A stretch of DNA of 64,000 nucleotides from Lishizhenia tianjinensis (GTDB lineage Bacteria > Bacteroidota > Bacteroidia > Flavobacteriales_D > Crocinitomicaceae). The DNA is taken from contig NZ_FPAS01000001.1 of the NCBI RefSeq assembly GCF_900116425.1, forward strand, positions 558,001-622,000, read 5' to 3'. Each line of letters opens with the position of its first letter. The stretch's first letter is position 1. Below are positions 3,364 through 11,038 of this stretch, one piece after another. The notes under the pieces were generated by a model that worked only from the letters and a program-made list of their open reading frames with translations, was not told where the DNA came from and made no database searches. Both the position numbers and the translations under genes were made by a program.

Positions 3364-3915
3364 CTAGTCAATTTCTATTTTACAGTTGTCGTTTTGCAAA
3401 TTATCTATTTCAGAAAGTAGATCCATATTGTTGGTAAAATCGATGAACTGTTGCTTTACGTATTTATTGATTTCCTTACGCTTTTTAGCTTCAGAAAAAC
3501 GACGTACATCCTCGTGGTTTCTCAATATTAAACCAGGTACTTGTGCGGGTTTCTTATCCTCATCTATGGCCACCATGGTAAAGTAAGATTTGTTGGTATG
3601 GGTTACCGTTCCCAATTTTAAATTTTCAGAAACCACTTTAATTCCTACCACCAGGGATGTATTTCCTACATAGTTTACACTGGCATATAAGGACAATTGA
3701 TCTCCAATTTCAACGGGGGTTAGGAAGTCAACCGTTTCTACGGATGCTGTAACACAGTAGTTTCCGGCATGTTTGGTAGCACAGGCATAGGCTACTTTGT
3801 CCATCATAGATAATATGGTTCCACCATGCACACGACCACCAAAGTTGGCGTATGAGGGTACCATGAGTTCCGAAAGTACGGTTTGGGATGCTGAATTGTG
3901 TTTAAATTCTTTCAT
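3364..3915 (-). CDS. Hotdog-fold acyl-CoA thioesterase
   Basis: A cytoplasmic acyl-CoA hydrolase of the hotdog family (YciA/BFIT type). The core motif GGRVHGGTILSMMDKVAYACA contains the Asp expected to be catalytic, and the TASVETVDFLTPVEIGD block is typical of the second strand region. I start at MKEFKHNSASQT, which gives 183 residues; the upstream in-frame ATG would add a 19-residue extension not seen in the family. A C-terminal tail of about 40 residues extends beyond the fold. It is the first gene of a minus-strand unit, followed at once by the AlkB-like gene. Substrate chain length is unknown. Confidence 0.85.
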   Translation of the reverse strand: MKEFKHNSASQTVLSELMVPSYANFGGRVHGGTILSMMDKVAYACATKHAGNYCVTASVETVDFLTPVEIGDQLSLYASVNYVGNTSLVVGIKVVSENLKLGTVTHTNKSYFTMVAIDEDKKPAQVPGLILRNHEDVRRFSEAKKRKEINKYVKQQFIDFTNNMDLLSEIDNLQNDNCKIEID

Positions 3916-4056
3916 AGCTTCACTTTTAGGAATTGAAGATAAGGAAATACCTGTCGTGAAAGTAAAAAGCATGGTTCAAGTTAGTGAAATGGTCATTTTA
4001 GAACTATTGTTTTCAATCTAAATTCAAATTCTCGACGTATATCTTTTAAAATTGTT

Positions 4057-5778
4057 ATGCGCAGAGCTCTTCTACTTTTATTTATAATTTTCACAATATC
4101 CCTACAAGCCGCTGAGGGGATTCAATGGCGAAAAATGAGTGGTGAAATCTTTAAAGAAGCAAAGGCAGAAAACAAAATGGTACTCTTGAATTTAGAAGCC
4201 AATTGGTGTCATTGGTGCCATGTCATGCACGATTCTACCTATTCCAATCCTGAGGTTGTTGCTTACATCAATGCGCATTTCATTCCAGTAAGTGCAGACC
4301 AAGATGCTTCTCCAGAATTATCTATACGCTACAAGGAATATGGTTGGCCAGCGACTATCTTTTTGAATGCAGATGGGGAAGACATCGTAAAAAGAGCGGG
4401 GTATATAGCGCCACAATGGTTTTTAAAGTTGATGAAGGCTATAGTGAAAGATCCAAGTCCAGAGTTACCATTAGCACAAACGAAAGCCGATCTAAATTAC
4501 GATATAGACTTAACAGCTAAACTTAAGCGTGTAGAAAACAATTTCGACGCTTCCCTGGATTATGAAAGGGGAGGTTTTGATCAAAATCAAAAATACATTG
4601 CTTGGGATACTTACGAATATGCACGCTTTTTTAAAACTACGGACAGTACACAACAATGGCTCAACGCAAGTGTGAATGGGGCTTATGGTTTAGTAGATCC
4701 TGTTTGGGGAGGTGTATATCAATATTCTACGCACAACGATTGGGAGCATTTGCACTTTGAGAAATTGATGATGGTACAAGCACGTTACCTCAACATCTTC
4801 CTCTACGATTATCTCTATACGCACAATCCTAATTCTCTGGACAAAGCAGATCAAATTATAGCGTATATAGATAGGTTCTTGAATTATGATGGTGTTTTGT
4901 ATTCCAATGCCCAGGATGCGGATGTTATTAAAGGAGAACACGCTGAGGCATTTTTTGCATTAAATGAAGCACAACGTTTAGCGCAAGGTATACCGGCTAT
5001 AGATAGCAATGTTTTTACGGAACGAAATGCACAAATTGCCGCTTCTTTGTTACTCTATGGGAGTGTGAAAAATGCGCAAGTGCCCAAAGATAGGGCTTAT
5101 GCTATTGCAGATGTTTTACTTCAACGCGTAGCGAGTAACGGACTGTATTTCCATGCCGATAAACAAAGGCCCGTATTTAGTTTGAAAGATCAAATTGCTA
5201 TGGCGAACATGTTAATTGCTCTCATCAAAGATAAAGGAGAGGCAACGAACAAATACACACAAGCCTTGGATGATTTAATGGTCAACATTGCCAAGCAGTA
5301 CGGTTTAACCAATGGCTCGCTCAAAAGTTTTGTTGGGAATATAGGTTTGGATGCTTTACCCATAGTGGAAGAGAATATTCACATGGGGAGAATCTTTAAT
5401 TGGTATGCCGAATTTTCAAAGGATGATAATTTTAAAGATTACGCAGAGAAGATTTTAGTGTATGTCTTGCAAGATGAAACCATGAAAACCTATTACAATG
5501 AACCTGCAGTACTAATGCTTGCCCAAGAACTTAAGCAGGAAGCTTTTCATTATGTAAATTTAAAAATGGAGGAGGAGAATATAGCCTATGAAATACTTAA
5601 AGCTTATGCTCCTTTTTACAGCTATTTGCACTCTTATGCCCAAGGAGATTTACCTTTAGATAAAAAAGAACTGTTTGAAGGTTTTGAAGTATCTACCACT
5701 TTGATTTGCACAGATCGCTATTGTTCGCCTCCGGTAAGTACCAAAAAAGAAGCCCAAGCATTCTTTGTAGAACCTTAG
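4057..5778 (+). CDS. Exported DUF255 (SSP411-like) thioredoxin-fold protein
   Basis: A 573-residue protein with an N-terminal signal peptide (MRRALLLLFIIFTISLQAAE). A thioredoxin-like domain of the DUF255 family follows, carrying NWCHWCHVM with C51 and C54 as the redox pair and GWPATIFLNADG as the cis-Pro region. The C-terminal two thirds is alpha-helical and resembles the six-hairpin glycosidase-like region of SSP411/YyaL proteins (DYERGGFDQNQKYIAWDTYE near residue 170). Usual family members are cytosolic and somewhat longer; the signal peptide and shorter length set this one apart. It likely acts in the periplasm on thiols or as a disulfide handler (inference). It is convergent with the RiPP operon and shares its 3' end with that operon's terminator. 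Confidence 0.75.
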   Translation: MRRALLLLFIIFTISLQAAEGIQWRKMSGEIFKEAKAENKMVLLNLEANWCHWCHVMHDSTYSNPEVVAYINAHFIPVSADQDASPELSIRYKEYGWPATIFLNADGEDIVKRAGYIAPQWFLKLMKAIVKDPSPELPLAQTKADLNYDIDLTAKLKRVENNFDASLDYERGGFDQNQKYIAWDTYEYARFFKTTDSTQQWLNASVNGAYGLVDPVWGGVYQYSTHNDWEHLHFEKLMMVQARYLNIFLYDYLYTHNPNSLDKADQIIAYIDRFLNYDGVLYSNAQDADVIKGEHAEAFFALNEAQRLAQGIPAIDSNVFTERNAQIAASLLLYGSVKNAQVPKDRAYAIADVLLQRVASNGLYFHADKQRPVFSLKDQIAMANMLIALIKDKGEATNKYTQALDDLMVNIAKQYGLTNGSLKSFVGNIGLDALPIVEENIHMGRIFNWYAEFSKDDNFKDYAEKILVYVLQDETMKTYYNEPAVLMLAQELKQEAFHYVNLKMEEENIAYEILKAYAPFYSYLHSYAQGDLPLDKKELFEGFEVSTTLICTDRYCSPPVSTKKEAQAFFVEP

Positions 5779-5785
5779 GCTTGGG
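5743..5785 (-). terminator. Terminator of the RiPP operon, inside the convergent gene
   Basis: GCCCAAGC at 5752-5759 pairs with GCTTGGG at 5779-5785, seven base pairs with a 19-base loop. Read on the minus strand the hairpin is followed by CTTCTTTTTT, the shape of an intrinsic terminator. It lies downstream of the DUF2063 gene and within the last codons of the plus-strand DUF255 gene. Confidence 0.5.
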
Positions 5786-5805
5786 TAAATGTTTTATCGG
5801 GACTT

Positions 5806-6546
5806 CTATTTCGTTCCGAGAATTATTCCTTTGTGAAGTAAGTCCATTAAACTAGCGCTAATACCTTGAAGTATTTCTTGTTTTTGAACTTCTGGTAATT
5901 GGTTTAATTCTTCTTCCAATAAAGTTGAAACAGACTGACCAGATCCTATTAAATTCTCTACTATATTGAACATCAAGGGTGCCAGTTCCATGTATTGAAC
6001 AGTTCCATTTTCTTGTCTGTATATCAAGAGGTAAGTAGCTTTCTCTTCAAGTTTTTCTTGACGTTTCAATAAATGAATAGGGTAGTTTAAAGTCAATAAT
6101 TTTAGATAGGGAGAAAAGTACAAGGTATCTGTAATGAGATCTGAGTCTTGTTGGACCTCAGGGATATCTTCATCTGCCATGGTGTGCACTTCAACCTCTA
6201 CCCACTCGAATTTTAAAAGATCAATTAAATAGGGGATGGCGTATTTCTCTGCATAATTTTTCTCCTCAGCAAAGGCAATAAACTCACCGGGCATCTTAAA
6301 AAGCTGGTTGTTTTGAAAAGCATGCTCAGCCAAAAATTCTGTAACAATTTCTTCCCAAGCTTTGGATGAAAACTGTTTGTATGCTATGGGGTAGTTGCCC
6401 TTAAGCGCATCGTTGACTATGGTAAAAATAAGTCTACGGTAATGGTGTAACCTATCTTCTCTAACATTGGGTAAGTCCTGTTGAACATTGGTTCTACAGT
6501 AAAGTGCCAAGTCTTCTTGTATGTGTTGTGTTTCTTTTTTAAGCAT
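5806..6546 (-). CDS. DUF2063 RiPP maturation partner (BufC/HvfC-like)
   Basis: A 246-residue protein of the DUF2063 type. The family signature appears at the N-terminus as a helical region with RLHHYRRLIFTIVNDALKGNYPI, and it also covers the AWEEIVTEFLAEH segment. In bufferin and Hvf systems the DUF2063-family protein (BufC/HvfC) partners the MNIO enzyme and recruits the precursor peptide. ATG at 6544-6546 overlaps the last eight bases of the MNIO gene (ATGCTTAA), which indicates translational coupling; the longer in-frame start upstream is therefore rejected. The C-terminal half (from about residue 130) is the part most likely to contact the substrate (inference). No enzymatic motif is visible. 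Confidence 0.8.
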   Translation of the reverse strand: MLKKETQHIQEDLALYCRTNVQQDLPNVREDRLHHYRRLIFTIVNDALKGNYPIAYKQFSSKAWEEIVTEFLAEHAFQNNQLFKMPGEFIAFAEEKNYAEKYAIPYLIDLLKFEWVEVEVHTMADEDIPEVQQDSDLITDTLYFSPYLKLLTLNYPIHLLKRQEKLEEKATYLLIYRQENGTVQYMELAPLMFNIVENLIGSGQSVSTLLEEELNQLPEVQKQEILQGISASLMDLLHKGIILGTK

Positions 6547-7372
6547 GATGTAGTGTTTTTTTCCAAGCTTTTTGAGCAATGGTGTCCAAGGTTTGCATTT
6601 CTGTTAGAATTTCAGTCATCTCGGGGAAGTTGAAGTCGCGCTCTAAAAGGACGGGAACTTCTTTGAGTTTAGGCAAAGTGGCTGTATACAATTCAAAGAC
6701 TTTATCTATAATCGCTTCTCCGTGGGTGTCAATAATAGTATCTTCTGAAACTTGTGTATGGCCGGCCATGTGGACGTAGGCCACTTTATCGAGTGGCAAA
6801 GCGTCAATAAATGCTGTCGCATCATAGTTGTGGTTAAAAGCATTAACATACACGTTGTTCACATCTAAAAGTAAATTACAACCCGATTCTTCCACTATGG
6901 AGCGAATAAATGTTGCTTCATCCATTTCAGCGGCTACAGGCGTGTAATAAGAAACGTTTTCCAAGGCAATGGGCATTTCCAAATAATCTTGGACTTCCTT
7001 AATGCGTTGAACGATGTGTTTTACAGCATCTTCACGAAAGGGTATAGGTAGAAGGTCGAACAAATGTGCGTTTTGTGCGTGACTGTAACTCAAATGTTCT
7101 GAATAGACTTGAACGTTATAGGTCTTTAAAAAGCTTTTGATTTTCTTAATGAATTCCCAGTTTAAAGGATCTGGACTTCCGATAGAAAGTGAGAGTCCGT
7201 GCGTAGTTATGGGAAACTTCTCCGCGACTTCACGCATCACTCCTCCCCAAAAACCACCTAAGTCTATCCAATTTTCGGGTGCCAATTCAACAAAAGCCGG
7301 GCGGTTTTCGTCTTCCAGCTTGAGAATATCCTTGTAAATATCCTTTCTAAATCCTAGTCCTACGTTCTGCAT
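6539..7372 (-). CDS. DUF692/MNIO multinuclear iron enzyme (BufB/HvfB-like)
   Basis: A 277-residue TIM-barrel protein of the DUF692 (MNIO) family. These iron enzymes oxidatively modify Cys residues in precursor peptides to copper-binding heterocycles (oxazolone/thioamide or thiooxazole). Candidate metal ligands are conserved: H58 (THGLSLS), H93 (SEHLSYS), E138 (LENVSYY), D170 and N173 (LLDVNNVY), H201 and H205 (HMAGHT), D215 and H217 (DTHG) and E244 (LLERD). Length matches the family. Precursor gene is 58 bases upstream with a terminator hairpin between, and the DUF2063 gene overlaps its 3' end. This gene order is the Buf/Hvf arrangement. The exact chemical product cannot be read from sequence. 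Confidence 0.9.
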   Translation of the reverse strand: MQNVGLGFRKDIYKDILKLEDENRPAFVELAPENWIDLGGFWGGVMREVAEKFPITTHGLSLSIGSPDPLNWEFIKKIKSFLKTYNVQVYSEHLSYSHAQNAHLFDLLPIPFREDAVKHIVQRIKEVQDYLEMPIALENVSYYTPVAAEMDEATFIRSIVEESGCNLLLDVNNVYVNAFNHNYDATAFIDALPLDKVAYVHMAGHTQVSEDTIIDTHGEAIIDKVFELYTATLPKLKEVPVLLERDFNFPEMTEILTEMQTLDTIAQKAWKKTLHHA

Positions 7373-7382
7373 CTTCTAAAAA

Positions 7383-7408
7383 TAAAAAAGGGAGGAACAA
7401 ATCCTCCC
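7383..7408 (-). terminator. Hairpin between precursor and MNIO genes
   Basis: GGGAGG at 7390-7395 pairs with CCTCCC at 7403-7408, with a seven-base loop. On the minus strand it is followed by TTTTTTATTTTT. It looks like a partial intrinsic terminator or mRNA 3' stabiliser after the precursor gene and before the enzyme gene. Confidence 0.65.
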
Positions 7409-7430
7409 ATTAATTCTATGTAAAGGGAGT

Positions 7431-7829
7431 TTATTTTTTTCCTGCTTCTCCACATTTAGCTTCAGTAGCTTTACCTTCTTCACCACACTTCGCTTCCGTC
7501 GCTTTACCTTCTTCACCACATTTTGCTTCTGTAGCTTTTCCTTCTTCACCGCATTTTGCCTCTGTAGCTTTTCCTTCCTCACCACATTTCGCTTCTGTTG
7601 CTTTACCTTCTTCTCCACATTTTGCTTCTGTAGATTTAGCTTCACCACATTTTGCATCTTGTGATTTGAAATCAATTCCAGCTTGGATAGTTTCTGCTGC
7701 TAACTCGCTTCTTAATTCACCTGCAGAACCTAAAGAAGTTGCTGCGAATGCTCCAGAACCTAAAGTTGCTAATGCTAATCCTCCTGCTAATAATCCTAAT
7801 TTCGTCGTGTTTTTTTTACTTGCTTTCAT
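7431..7829 (-). CDS. Cys-repeat RiPP precursor (bufferin/HvfA-like)
   Basis: A 132-residue precursor peptide. Residues 1-30 form a Sec-type signal peptide: Lys-rich start, hydrophobic LGLLAGGLALATLGSG, and an AFA cleavage site. A short linker of about 28 residues follows. Residues 58-130 are a ladder of TEAKCGEEGKA units with seven Cys at 61, 71, 82, 93, 104, 115 and 126; all gaps but the first are 11 residues. This resembles the EGKCG motifs of HvfA-type precursors modified by MNIO enzymes. I start at MKASKKNTTK because the signal peptide begins there; an in-frame ATG 15 codons upstream only adds a polar stretch. It is the first gene of the operon with the MNIO and DUF2063 genes. Likely job: periplasmic copper binding after Cys modification (inference). 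Confidence 0.85.
   Translation of the reverse strand: MKASKKNTTKLGLLAGGLALATLGSGAFAATSLGSAGELRSELAAETIQAGIDFKSQDAKCGEAKSTEAKCGEEGKATEAKCGEEGKATEAKCGEEGKATEAKCGEEGKATEAKCGEEGKATEAKCGEAGKK
7443..7653. repeat. 33-bp coding repeats of the precursor peptide
   Basis: About six tandem 33-base units encode EGKATEAKCGE. The DNA copies differ at many third positions (for example GCA/GCG/GCC-type changes and Cys codons TGT/TGC) while the encoded peptide is nearly invariant. Confidence 0.85.
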
Positions 7830-8002
7830 CTTTTTGAGTTTTGTATCGTATTTGACATACATACTACCCTCCACTTCTTTTGGATTTTAAAAAGGTGAAA
7901 AAAAATAAAATTGATGGACACCTGAGTTTAAATGTATTTGACTAAAACGCTTGTAAATGAAAGGGTAGTAGGGGGTGATTGTTGGATGAAATAAAATTGA
8001 AA

Positions 8003-8707
8003 TTATTTTAGTTGTAAGGTACTTAGCATACGTTCAAATTCGTCAAACAAAGGTGCTTTTATGATGATTTCCTGTTTTAAATAAGGATGTTTAAATGTAA
8101 AATCAAGTGCATGCAACATCATTTGCTCCAATCCAAAACGCTCACCTAAGAGTTTGTTCTGCTTGTTGCAGCCATGGGGTCTATCTCCAATGATAGGGTG
8201 GCGTAAATGATTACAGTGCTTTCTGATTTGATGCATACGTCCAGTTTTCGGGAAAGCTTCTATTAAAGAATATCTAGAGGTGGAAAATTTACCCGAAGGA
8301 AAATCACATTCGGATTGTTTTAAACAGCGATAGTTGGTTTGTGCCTCCTGTTCCTTTCCTTTTAAGTTTTTTAAAGGATGATCCACATAGATCTCTTCTG
8401 GAAAATGACCACGTACTATGGCTACGTATCTCTTTTGTGTTTCTGTAAAAGCCAAAGTTTCCTGCATCTTTTGGGCAGCTTCAGAACTAAAGGCAAACAA
8501 GAGTACCCCTGAAGTTTTTCTATCGAGTCTGTGTATAGGATAGAGGTGCTTTTGGGTTTGGTCTCTTACAATTTGAAGTGCAAATTCTTCTGCATCTGAT
8601 GCCAAATTTGTACGGTGTACCAGAAGTCCTGTAGGCTTGTTTACCGCTACATAGTGTTCATCCTGATAAAGGACGTCCAATTCCTTTTGTGTTGCTAATT
8701 CTTCCAC
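8003..8707 (-). CDS. truC: RluA-family pseudouridine synthase, TruC-like
   Basis: A 234-residue pseudouridine synthase. The catalytic motif HRLDRKTSGVLLF carries the nucleophilic Asp, and the N-terminus LDVLYQDEHYVAVNKPTGLLVHR closely follows TruC, which makes pseudouridine 65 in tRNA-Ile and tRNA-Asp. The later block GRMHQIRKHCNHLRHPIIGD is the RluA-family substrate loop. There is no S4 domain, and length fits TruC more than RluA/C/D. It is separated from the SulP gene by a strong hairpin and so is probably transcribed on its own. Target position is inferred from resemblance. Confidence 0.85.
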   Translation of the reverse strand: MEELATQKELDVLYQDEHYVAVNKPTGLLVHRTNLASDAEEFALQIVRDQTQKHLYPIHRLDRKTSGVLLFAFSSEAAQKMQETLAFTETQKRYVAIVRGHFPEEIYVDHPLKNLKGKEQEAQTNYRCLKQSECDFPSGKFSTSRYSLIEAFPKTGRMHQIRKHCNHLRHPIIGDRPHGCNKQNKLLGERFGLEQMMLHALDFTFKHPYLKQEIIIKAPLFDEFERMLSTLQLK

Positions 8708-8734
8708 AGTTTTAAGCTAAAGTGTAAAGCTAAA

Positions 8735-8766
8735 AAAAGCAGGTTGTATTGCTACGTCCTGCTTTT
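8735..8766 (-). terminator. Bidirectional-looking terminator after the SulP gene
   Basis: AAAAGCAGG at 8735-8743 pairs with CCTGCTTTT at 8758-8766, nine base pairs with a 14-base loop. On the minus strand a run of T follows, as expected for the end of the SulP transcript. Confidence 0.7.
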
Positions 8767-8771
8767 ATTTT

Positions 8772-10418
8772 TTAATCTGTAACGGCCGGTGTATCGGTCA
8801 TTACATAATATCTAGGATCATCTATACTTTCTTCTATGATGTCTTTAAACCCTTCGTTGTTTTTAATCAACAAGGTCTTACAATCCGGACTCAAATGGGT
8901 TAATTTCACTTTCTTTCCTTGTGCTTCATACTTGTTGACCAAGTTTACCAAGGCTTCAATTCCAGAGTGGTCAGAAACTTTAGAGTCTAAGAAGTCAATT
9001 TCTATATTTTCAGGATCTTCCTTAATGTCAAACTTCTGATTAAAGGCTTGTATACTTCCAAAGAATAAAGGTCCGAAGATTTCGTACACCTTTGTTCCAT
9101 CTTCCTTGTATTTCTTACGCGCTCTAATTCTAACAGCGTTCTCCCAAGCAAATACCAAAGCAGAGATAATAACACCTGCGAATACCGCAATCGCTAAATC
9201 GGCAACGATGGTAATGACAGAAACGGCTACCAATACAAAGGCATCAGATTTTGGGATCTTTTTCATGATACGTAAACTCGACCAAGCAAAAGTATCTATC
9301 ACCATAACAAACATAACACCTACTAATGCTGCGATAGGCACCATTTCTATGTATTCAGCTGCAAATACGATGAAAGACAATAAAGTCAAGGCCATTATTA
9401 CACCCGATAATCTACCACGACCTTTAGCATTCACGTTAATCATGGTTTGACCTATCATACCACAACCACCTGTACCACCAAATAATCCACTTACGATGTT
9501 TCCGAAACCTTGTCCAACACATTCTCTGTTTCCATTCCCACGTGTTTCTGTAATTTCATCCACCAAGTTCATGGTCATCAATGACTCAATTAAACCTACA
9601 GAAGCAGCTAAAAATGCATAAGGGAAAATGAAGCTCAAGGTATCTAAATTCAAGGGTAAGTTGGCCCACAATTCTAGGTTAGGCGTTGGGAATTTACCTT
9701 TTAAACCTTCACCACCACCTTCTCTGATGTAAGAACCTATGGTTGCAACATCCATTCCTGAGAAAATGACAAAGAAGGTTATAATTAATATGGCAGTTAA
9801 TGCTGCTGGTAATTTCGCTGTTACCTTCCATTTAGGTAGTAAGTAAATGATGGCCATGGTTACCGCCACCAAAATTGACATCTTGCTTAATGCGCTCCAC
9901 GAAAACAAATCACTAAAGAAAGCTGAAAATGCGGATTGAGTTTCTGTACCTGCGTGCACCGGGAACATTTTTAATTGTGCGATGAAAATCACAACCGCCA
10001 AACCGTTTACAAAGCCCAACATTACAGGGTGGGGTATTAGTCGGACAAAGCGCCCTAACTTAAAGTAACCCGCTGCCACTTGTATAATACCCATTAAGAT
10101 AACACAGGCAAAAAGGTAAAAGAAGCCCATGTTTTCCACAGGAGTTTCAAAGGCCAAACCTTTTTCGTGACCTTCGGCTATCATGTTCACGAAGATGACT
10201 GCTACGGCACCTGCAGCGCCAGAAATTAAACCGGGTCTACCACCAAAAAGCGCTGTAATTAGACCTACGATAAATGCTCCCGACAAGGCTACTAAAGGAT
10301 CTATCCTCGCCACAAAGGCAAAGGCTACAACCTCTGGTATCATTGCCAAAGAAACGGTCATTCCTGCTAAAATATCATTCTTAGGATTTGCTGTAAATCC
10401 GTGGAAAAACTTCTTCAT
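8772..10418 (-). CDS. SulP family anion transporter with STAS domain
   Basis: A 548-residue inner-membrane protein of the SulP/SLC26 family, with about a dozen hydrophobic segments between residues 15 and 430. The N-terminal signature appears as LAGMTVSLAMIPEVVAFAFVA, and the family glycine-rich block is GNIVSGLFGGTGGCGMIGQT. A C-terminal STAS domain (from about residue 440, with DFLDSKVSDHSGIEALVNL) regulates such carriers. Substrate may be sulfate, bicarbonate or another anion. Length fits the BicA-like group, and the window also encodes a carbonic anhydrase at 36.5 kb, but that link is weak. Single-gene unit with a -7 box 19 bases upstream of the start. Confidence 0.88.
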   Translation of the reverse strand: MKKFFHGFTANPKNDILAGMTVSLAMIPEVVAFAFVARIDPLVALSGAFIVGLITALFGGRPGLISGAAGAVAVIFVNMIAEGHEKGLAFETPVENMGFFYLFACVILMGIIQVAAGYFKLGRFVRLIPHPVMLGFVNGLAVVIFIAQLKMFPVHAGTETQSAFSAFFSDLFSWSALSKMSILVAVTMAIIYLLPKWKVTAKLPAALTAILIITFFVIFSGMDVATIGSYIREGGGEGLKGKFPTPNLELWANLPLNLDTLSFIFPYAFLAASVGLIESLMTMNLVDEITETRGNGNRECVGQGFGNIVSGLFGGTGGCGMIGQTMINVNAKGRGRLSGVIMALTLLSFIVFAAEYIEMVPIAALVGVMFVMVIDTFAWSSLRIMKKIPKSDAFVLVAVSVITIVADLAIAVFAGVIISALVFAWENAVRIRARKKYKEDGTKVYEIFGPLFFGSIQAFNQKFDIKEDPENIEIDFLDSKVSDHSGIEALVNLVNKYEAQGKKVKLTHLSPDCKTLLIKNNEGFKDIIEESIDDPRYYVMTDTPAVTD

Positions 10419-10436
10419 ACCAAAATTTTAAGGGGG

Positions 10437-10444
10437 CAAAGATA
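10437..10444 (-). promoter_or_regulatory. -7 box TATCTTTG of the SulP gene
   Basis: Read on the minus strand this is an exact TAnnTTTG element 18 bases upstream of the SulP start codon. A TTG -33 element at 19-20 base spacing was not found. Confidence 0.5.
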
Positions 10445-10594
10445 GAGAACTCAAAATGCAATAGCGAATGATGAGGGAGAAATTTGAGAATGGAGAGGAG
10501 TTAGTATAGATTTAGCAGGGAGGAAGGGGAGTATTATGGTTTTATCAAACTGACTAGGCTTTCAAGTATAAAAAGGAAAAAGGTAGTGTTCTTT

Positions 10595-11038
10595 TTATTC
10601 AGAATCATAATCGATCGGAGGATTTTCTTCATCAAATTCTTTCTCACATTGAGGAATATACGGGGATAATAGAGTATCCTCTTTTTCCTCCAATTGTCCA
10701 CGTTTTAGCACCCAAACACGGAAATTATCTGCATAATCCTTTCTACGGTCTTCATCATCTTGAATATATAAAAGTCCGTAAGATCCAGGGCCATTTTCAG
10801 AAATCCATCTAAAAATCTGAAGGGGATAAAACCTGTCTGTTCCTCTATGGTTATGACATCCATTCATCATTAACATGTCCATACCATTAAAGCTTCCTAT
10901 TTTAATATTAGTTTCTAATACTACTGGAAACTCTGTTTTGAGAAATGTATTCAATTTATTCTTAAAATCTTCCTGTTTTTTGTTACCAACATGATAATCG
11001 CTAAAGCGTAATGTAATCCAACCGTGATATTCTATCAT
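10595..11038 (-). CDS. Imm7-like immunity protein
   Basis: A 147-residue soluble acidic protein. It starts MIEYHGWITLR and contains NGPGSYGLLYIQDDEDR and a VWVLKRGQLEEKEDTLLSPYIP stretch. These resemble the Imm7 family of immunity proteins from polymorphic toxin systems, which have an N-terminal HGW motif, a GSYG-type core and a DxxLSP tail (recalled from family knowledge). No toxin gene or Rhs/VgrG/T9SS toxin partner lies next to it, so it would be an orphan immunity gene. Codon use is not visibly different from neighbours. Confidence in the family name is moderate; in the gene it is high. Confidence 0.6.
   Translation of the reverse strand: MIEYHGWITLRFSDYHVGNKKQEDFKNKLNTFLKTEFPVVLETNIKIGSFNGMDMLMMNGCHNHRGTDRFYPLQIFRWISENGPGSYGLLYIQDDEDRRKDYADNFRVWVLKRGQLEEKEDTLLSPYIPQCEKEFDEENPPIDYDSE

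Follow-up and report, generated by a model that had tools for sequence, protein, structure and literature searches.

A lone-site cysteine ladder operon of the Hvf kind in Lishizhenia tianjinensis, with an associated thioredoxin/DsbH-domain gene and a clade promoter motif

Within a 64,000-nucleotide stretch of the Lishizhenia tianjinensis genome (Crocinitomicaceae; contig NZ_FPAS01000001.1, positions 558,001 to 622,000; hereafter the window), the minus strand at positions 5806-7829 carries an operon encoding a cysteine-rich precursor, a multinuclear non-heme iron-dependent oxidative enzyme (MNIO, DUF692) and a DUF2063 partner with a recognition element (RRE) for ribosomally synthesized and post-translationally modified peptides (RiPPs). 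By family assignment, this core belongs to a known type of RiPP operon, on the Hvf/oxazolin/captophorin side, and is not a DUF2282 bufferin. Sequence comparison indicates that the known kind is varied here by a ladder of lone Cys sites, a Bacteroidota leader, an extracytoplasmic function (ECF)-type promoter and a thioredoxin/DsbH-domain partner. Three features look new: the 11-residue single-Cys ladder, the thioredoxin/DsbH association and the promoter motif shared in the clade. We put the probability at roughly 0.65 that the operon specifies an ECF-controlled, Sec-exported periplasmic copper-buffering peptide of the Hvf/captophorin kind with a dedicated thiol-redox partner. An earlier sequence-only reading of the window had proposed a copper-binding RiPP at this site; its interpretation is supported in part, having overlooked the thioredoxin-domain neighbour, the ECF-type promoter and the ladder as a feature of a clade.

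The three same-strand genes lie exactly where that reading had placed them. The precursor gene (7431-7829, minus strand, 132 aa, HvfA-like) is followed by the MNIO gene (6539-7372, minus strand, 277 aa, HvfB-type) and the partner gene (5806-6546, minus strand, 246 aa, HvfC-type), the last two overlapping by 8 nt. The families had also been named, and the lack of a DUF692 or DUF2063 match was to count against the proposal. The MNIO matches Pfam PF05114 at E 2.1e-97, and the partner matches DUF2063 at E 5.2e-11 and NGO1945_C at E 3.3e-14. Both exceed their NCBIfam cut-offs, for HvfB (374.2 bits, cut-off 360) and HvfC (146.2 bits, cut-off 142). The precursor reaches 36.1 bits with the HvfA-family repeat model KCGExKCG_twice (NF050137, cut-off 19.5) and stays below the full-length HvfA model of NCBIfam (16.2 bits, cut-off 95); the Brumimicrobium precursor is under the NF050137 domain cut-off (16.6 bits vs 19.5). 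Across 13 aligned MNIOs, H58, H93, E138, D170, H201, D215, H217 and E244 are invariant, a set which we take to include the iron ligands. The window genome has a single PF05114 match. Of the set described earlier as Buf/Hvf, the Hvf part holds and the bufferin part does not. A DUF2282-type bufferin would share the enzyme and partner families, but we regard it as very improbable, as the precursor has no DUF2282 match in Pfam at E up to 1 and the MNIO, although above the HvfB cut-off, reaches 271.5 bits with the bufferin maturase model, below its cut-off of 310. Placement in the Bacteroidota is borne out, the genome belonging to the same family, Crocinitomicaceae, as Brumimicrobium aurantiacum.

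Starting at position 7829, the precursor has a basic N-terminus, a hydrophobic stretch and an AFA-A junction, features that we read by eye as those of a Sec signal peptide. After it come seven Cys-Gly sites, spaced 10, 11, 11, 11, 11 and 11 residues apart, in agreement with the signal peptide, site number and regular spacing noted earlier. Spacing and repeat analysis of this ladder of 11-residue units (7434-7652, minus strand) found no C-x4-C pair, and the EGKCG motif is absent from the precursor on inspection. KCGEEGKATEA occurs five times exactly, and the 33-nt repeat has a Tandem Repeats Finder score of 285. Nucleotide variation among the five protein-identical units is confined to 9 of 33 columns, and every change is synonymous, whereas only 21% of the single changes possible in the repeat (33% of transitions) would be. 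The unit is therefore maintained by selection rather than freshly duplicated. Structure prediction of the precursor from a shallow alignment gave no confident fold (mean predicted local distance difference test score, pLDDT, 42.8), and the model was discarded as unusable. With the window precursor as query, no second precursor was found in the window genome, and a plasmid search returned just three weak Acinetobacter matches.

A survey of neighbourhoods in the Bacteroidota, suggested by the sequence-only reading, found similar MNIO-DUF2063 loci across the phylum. MNIO matches at E<=1e-20 were present in 19 of 395 sampled phylum-group genomes, 9 of 299 from the order and 17 of 240 from the family, several of them lower-identity MNIOs of other kinds (25-43%). 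The named-genome scan took the best 80 of at least 563 confirmed loci. Precursors were compared one per locus for 80 of 91 non-duplicate loci, window included; the remaining 11 yielded none through the filter, and at least one of these (L096) does contain one. What we call the Bacteroidota side also takes in rows from Ignavibacteriota, Verrucomicrobiota and Chlamydiota. Of the 80 precursors, 75 have one or more C-x4-C pairs (44/48 on the Bacteroidota side, 31/32 in Pseudomonadota). The five without any are the window, L036, L050, L087 and L114; two loci of the family that were added afterwards, L131 and L132, have single-site ladders as well. The 11-residue ladder is common to the window and four other Crocinitomicaceae loci (L036, L050, L131, L132), and the MNIOs of these five form one clade, with support of 99 in a quick tree of 95 rows and 100/99 in a careful tree of 56 of those rows. 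L087 (Wenyingzhuangia marina), with a 10-residue ladder, is placed outside this clade, so that, barring repeated loss, ladders of lone sites have at least two origins. In two further genomes of the family (L135, L136), the MNIO matches contain in-frame stops, so the locus decays in some lineages.

The leader also separates the two sides. In the window, the motif F-x4-L-G-S-A-G-E-L-R (residues 28-40; 7710-7748, minus strand) lies at the predicted signal-peptide junction and is the presumed recognition site for the RRE of the partner. The pattern G[STNE][GA]xx[LVIM]R is found in 42 of 48 precursors of the Bacteroidota side and 0 of 32 from Pseudomonadota, and Fx4Lx2G[YF] in 30 of 32 from Pseudomonadota and 0 of 48 of the Bacteroidota side, both patterns having been composed after the compared sequences were viewed. 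F-x4-L stands at the junction in many rows of both sides, which suggests one homologous recognition site.

Convergent with the operon is a gene encoding a secreted thioredoxin/DsbH-domain protein (ANWCHWCHVM; 4057-5778, plus strand, 573 aa). It matches PF03190 (Thioredox_DsbH) at E 4.6e-23 and 82.4 bits (cut-off 27) and does not reach the DsbH equivalog model (29.9 bits, cut-off 190); CHWC is conserved in all 8 aligned homologues. The predicted structure has a pLDDT of 68 and a predicted template modelling score of 0.71. The protein is closest to PDB 7tkv (profile E 1.6e-19; best Foldseek match E 2.0e-13), the uncharacterised Brucella Bab1_2064. Like such Thioredox_DsbH/DUF255 proteins, it joins a thioredoxin domain to an (alpha/alpha)-toroid-like remainder; unlike Bab1_2064, members of the window group are exported, have about 573 aa and are tied to Hvf ladder operons.

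This tie is seen in three gene arrangements, a genomic association that supports a partner role. A close homologue was found in seven genomes and lies beside a ladder operon in all seven. In the five Crocinitomicaceae ladder loci, the gene is always convergent with and next to the operon. In two Wenyingzhuangia genomes, which have the independent ladder, it is on the same strand directly upstream of the precursor, and in G984 a 35% homologue closes a same-strand precursor-MNIO-DUF2063-DoxX-thioredoxin run. When the compared loci were searched with the L037 protein, each of the five ladder loci and L087 gave a full-length match, and L077 gave a relative of 146 residues. Among 240 Crocinitomicaceae genomes there are 16 matches at E<=1e-60; those of at least 48% identity (48-52%, plus the window itself) fall in exactly the five ladder-operon genomes, and the next are at 41% or below. 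The chance of a five-of-five overlap is 1.6e-10 assuming independent genomes, which these are not. Within the Brumimicrobium genus code g179, two genomes have both operon and thioredoxin gene and eight listed genomes have neither at the thresholds used. Elsewhere, matches past 1e-110 in 395 genomes of the class are only the window and four at 35-36% identity, and two of 397 Flavobacteriaceae-type genomes pass 1e-100, both with thioredoxin, precursor, MNIO and DUF2063 genes on one strand.

In the Crocinitomicaceae clade, operon and thioredoxin gene share the motif AAATCC-N16-CGTATGTA, which is weak at the window thioredoxin gene. The putative ECF-sigma promoter of the window operon, AAATCC-N16-AGTATGTA, lies 58 nt upstream of the precursor ATG (7858-7887, minus strand). 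All five clade members have AAATCC-N16-[CA]GTA[TG]GTA at -56 to -65 of the precursor, with the same two blocks and 16-nt spacer in L036, L037/L050, L131/L151 and L132/L152. When the window was left out of the matrix, its site still reached 23.2 bits, where shuffles averaged 3.3 and 0 of 40 scored as high. The thioredoxin-gene motif is clear in L036, L037, L151 and L152 (15.5-25.4 bits, 0/500 shuffles as high); the window copy, CAATCT-N16-CGTATATC (4014-4043, plus strand), has 7.5 bits, equalled by 14/500 shuffles. Seven of 103 upstream regions (open reading frames of at least 150 aa, window and five loci) exceed 15 bits: four belong to thioredoxin genes, one to the precursor of L152, which was itself used in training, and two to genes that adjoin the sigma/anti-sigma pair of the window genome itself. 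Genome-wide, AAATCCN{15,17}NGTATG gave 9 matches vs 4 for the reversed control, and only that of the operon lies before a gene; the pattern is too strict for two sites in L153, the locus of this pair on contig C8.

In four relatives, the operon is immediately preceded by an ECF sigma/anti-sigma pair. In L037, L151 and L152, the ECF sigma gene, an RskA-type anti-sigma gene and the precursor gene are consecutive on one strand; in L036, a similar row leads to a broken precursor copy. The pair (L153; L037) is above the cut-offs for Sigma70_r2, r4 and RskA_C, and the SigK subfamily is the best NCBIfam match of the sigma gene, but below cut-off (122.4 of 226). From the adjacency in four relatives and the shared motif, we infer that the motif belongs to a SigK/RskA-type ECF sigma factor. 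In L153, the motif precedes two genes at a distance of 53-56 nt, scoring 19.5 and 20.5 bits, and the regulon is therefore probably larger. One gene encodes a secreted repeat protein that matches no Pfam family (8583-9584), the other a second RskA-type anti-sigma factor (9759-10589). No Bacteroidota housekeeping box of the consensus TTTG-N-TAnnTTTG was found upstream of six compared precursors; sigma-70 sites in the region are no more numerous than in shuffles, and an Rfam scan of 3500-9000 gave none at gathering thresholds. Separately, L036 has two precursor copies (7845-8255, 10479-10775): the intact one follows the partner gene and has a promoter motif to itself, and the broken one, at the usual place, retains its motif.

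Between the precursor and MNIO genes lies a terminator-like hairpin with a T-run, GGGAGGATTTGTTCCTCCC-TTTTTTATTT (7390-7408, minus strand), a probable attenuator favouring precursor over enzyme. Over the whole region such sites are not above chance (2 vs 3.0 expected). Among precursor-MNIO gaps of 25 to 400 nt, a hairpin is found in 19 of 43 on the Bacteroidota side vs 1.0 expected from mononucleotide shuffles, and in 2 of 15 in Pseudomonadota vs 0.9 expected. The Bacteroidota-side excess is in line with a surplus of precursor over enzyme.

We propose that under stress the SigK/RskA-type ECF sigma factor would transcribe the operon, and the hairpin after the first gene would leave more precursor than enzyme. 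The DUF2063/RRE partner may grip the precursor through F-x4-L-G-S at the signal-peptide junction, and the MNIO would carry out a four-electron oxidation of each Lys-Cys-Gly site, most likely to a 5-thiooxazole. The exported chain, by analogy probably a copper-binding 5-thiooxazole product, could hold copper(I) by its seven mercapto-heterocycles, which are set at even intervals. With single sites 11 residues apart instead of C-x4-C pairs, metal would probably be bound between distant sites or chains. The co-regulated secreted thioredoxin/DsbH-domain protein would keep the ladder thiols reduced and hence able to bind. Tentatively, and at less than even odds, we suggest that this protein is a dedicated partner with the mercaptan of the peptide heterocycle as its substrate: in the periplasm it would reduce the disulfides, mixed or inter-site, of thiooxazole ladders, or hand copper over to the ladders, and so make lone-site ladders workable without paired sites. 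If true, the product would be a metallophore cycled by redox reactions, and a DUF255-type protein would have a new role.

Published systems frame this proposal. EGKCG products contain 5-thiooxazoles and bind copper (PMC13097082), and most EGKCG clusters, with 5-thiooxazole assigned, are in Pseudomonadota (PMC12452194, PMC13097082, PMC12538549, PMC12636315, PMC7509140). Like Haemophilus HvfABC (oxazolin), fontiphorin FonABC and the captophorins, the window has a Sec-exported Lys-Cys-Gly repeat precursor, an HvfB-type MNIO and DUF2063/RRE in the order A-B-C (PMC13097082). Unlike HvfABC and FonABC, it has the 11-residue single-Cys unit in place of EGKCG and C-x4-C pairs, the Bacteroidota leader G[ST][GA]xE[LVI]R in place of a GY leader, and, without DoxX, a thioredoxin/DsbH neighbour and presumed SigK/RskA-type control (PMC13097082). 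Type 1 Buf_EGKCG/oxazolin precursors likewise have Cys-Gly repeats after a signal peptide with MNIO and DUF2063 genes, whereas the window has lone sites and no confident predicted fold; sigma/NrsF genes occur with Buf1, not Buf2, clusters (PMC12452194). The Microbulbifer mmr cluster also directs an MNIO/DUF2063 pair at Cys-rich repeats, and its product, bulbicupramide, binds copper; unlike the window, it has two Cys per cassette, and the available part of the article makes no mention of thioredoxin (PMC12538549). A modified pair peptide has a disulfide reducible by tris(2-carboxyethyl)phosphine (PMC12538549). The word thioredoxin is absent from the main text of the two surveys, PMC12452194 among them, and among the matches listed, at the level of main articles, no publication joins MNIO with thioredoxin or DUF255. 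The window operon carries a mostly proteobacterial field into the Bacteroidota, where the recognition motif is different and the repeat unit, with one site, is simpler. Together the ladder peptide, its maturation enzymes and the thioredoxin-domain protein would make up a small conserved regulon, which offers a direct test of how these peptides escape periplasmic disulfide oxidation and of how a stress signal turns them on.

Several points weigh against this scheme. The close thioredoxin homologues come from no more than two ladder lineages of independent origin, and linked genes may travel together. Among seven distant homologues whose surroundings were inspected (eight others are outside this count), G984 has an Hvf operon and G626, G658, G714, G952, G1063 and G1112 have no Hvf genes in the inspected stretches. 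Since a C-x4-C pair is present in the G984 precursor, the gene does not go strictly with ladder geometry. Residues 48-59 of the thioredoxin model, the active-site stretch (CHWC), are at pLDDT <50. The window's own thioredoxin promoter is weak, its sigma pair sits on contig C8 rather than beside the operon, and the motif is absent upstream of the sigma genes themselves. In vitro, FonBC modified a two-repeat minimal peptide and not a one-repeat peptide (PMC13097082), and modification of lone sites is therefore not assured.

One alternative is an ordinary Hvf/captophorin operon, in which the thioredoxin gene is simply adjacent and has a separate function, and the ladder has drifted neutrally within a low-complexity chain. 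We consider this doubtful, though of appreciable probability. It accords with the convergent gene in the window and four relatives, with most distant homologues occurring alone and with a low-complexity core predicted, from that shallow alignment, to be disordered. It sits poorly with the same-strand genes in Wenyingzhuangia and G984, the promoter motif common to operon and thioredoxin gene in four relatives, the both-or-neither pattern of g179 and a repeat that varies only synonymously. A product directed at oxidants, gold, zinc or other soft metals, with copper not the main target, seems rather unlikely: SigK/RskA-type regulators and a thioredoxin-fold partner do suggest thiol or envelope stress, and inducers of such pathways include copper, gold and oxidative stress, yet copper binding is the common property of the characterised EGKCG products (PMC13097082). 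Quite unlikely, in our estimate, is that the MNIO puts another group on lone Lys-Cys-Gly sites or modifies only some. Oxazolone-thioamide was the first assignment for HvfA products (PMC12636315, PMC12452194), the window site geometry is unlike that of tested substrates and the FonBC result points the same way; against this, the window MNIO scores above the HvfB cut-off, and nuclear magnetic resonance of alkylated peptides gave 5-thiooxazole in three EGKCG-type clusters including hvf (PMC13097082).

No DoxX-type gene is present in the surveyed stretch around the operon, as the sequence-only reading had noted. DoxX from a related locus found no match in the whole window genome, in a search without a positive control, and with just one borderline PF07681 match, on another contig, a displaced copy as partner was rejected. 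Counting loci with at least 500 nt beyond the partner gene, 26 of 50 Bacteroidota-side loci and 14 of 37 Pseudomonadota-side loci have DoxX in the surveyed stretch; its absence is thus not distinctive.

Other exported thioredoxin-fold genes stand between or beside DUF2063 and DoxX genes in L061 (5567-6208) and L077 (5573-6013, 6534-7148), the Pfam check covering L077 5573-6013. In G626, where no MNIO match occurs at E<=1e-20, a lipoprotein-like gene with repeated KCEGD units (L171, 12809-13120) lies about 2.4 kb from the 41% thioredoxin homologue and is a possible unmodified relative of the Cys ladder. Lower-identity Bacteroidota MNIOs at L042 (10081-10767) and L137 (657-1436) adjoin long Cys-rich proteins with CxG and CK motifs, which by eye resemble the Buf2 kind.
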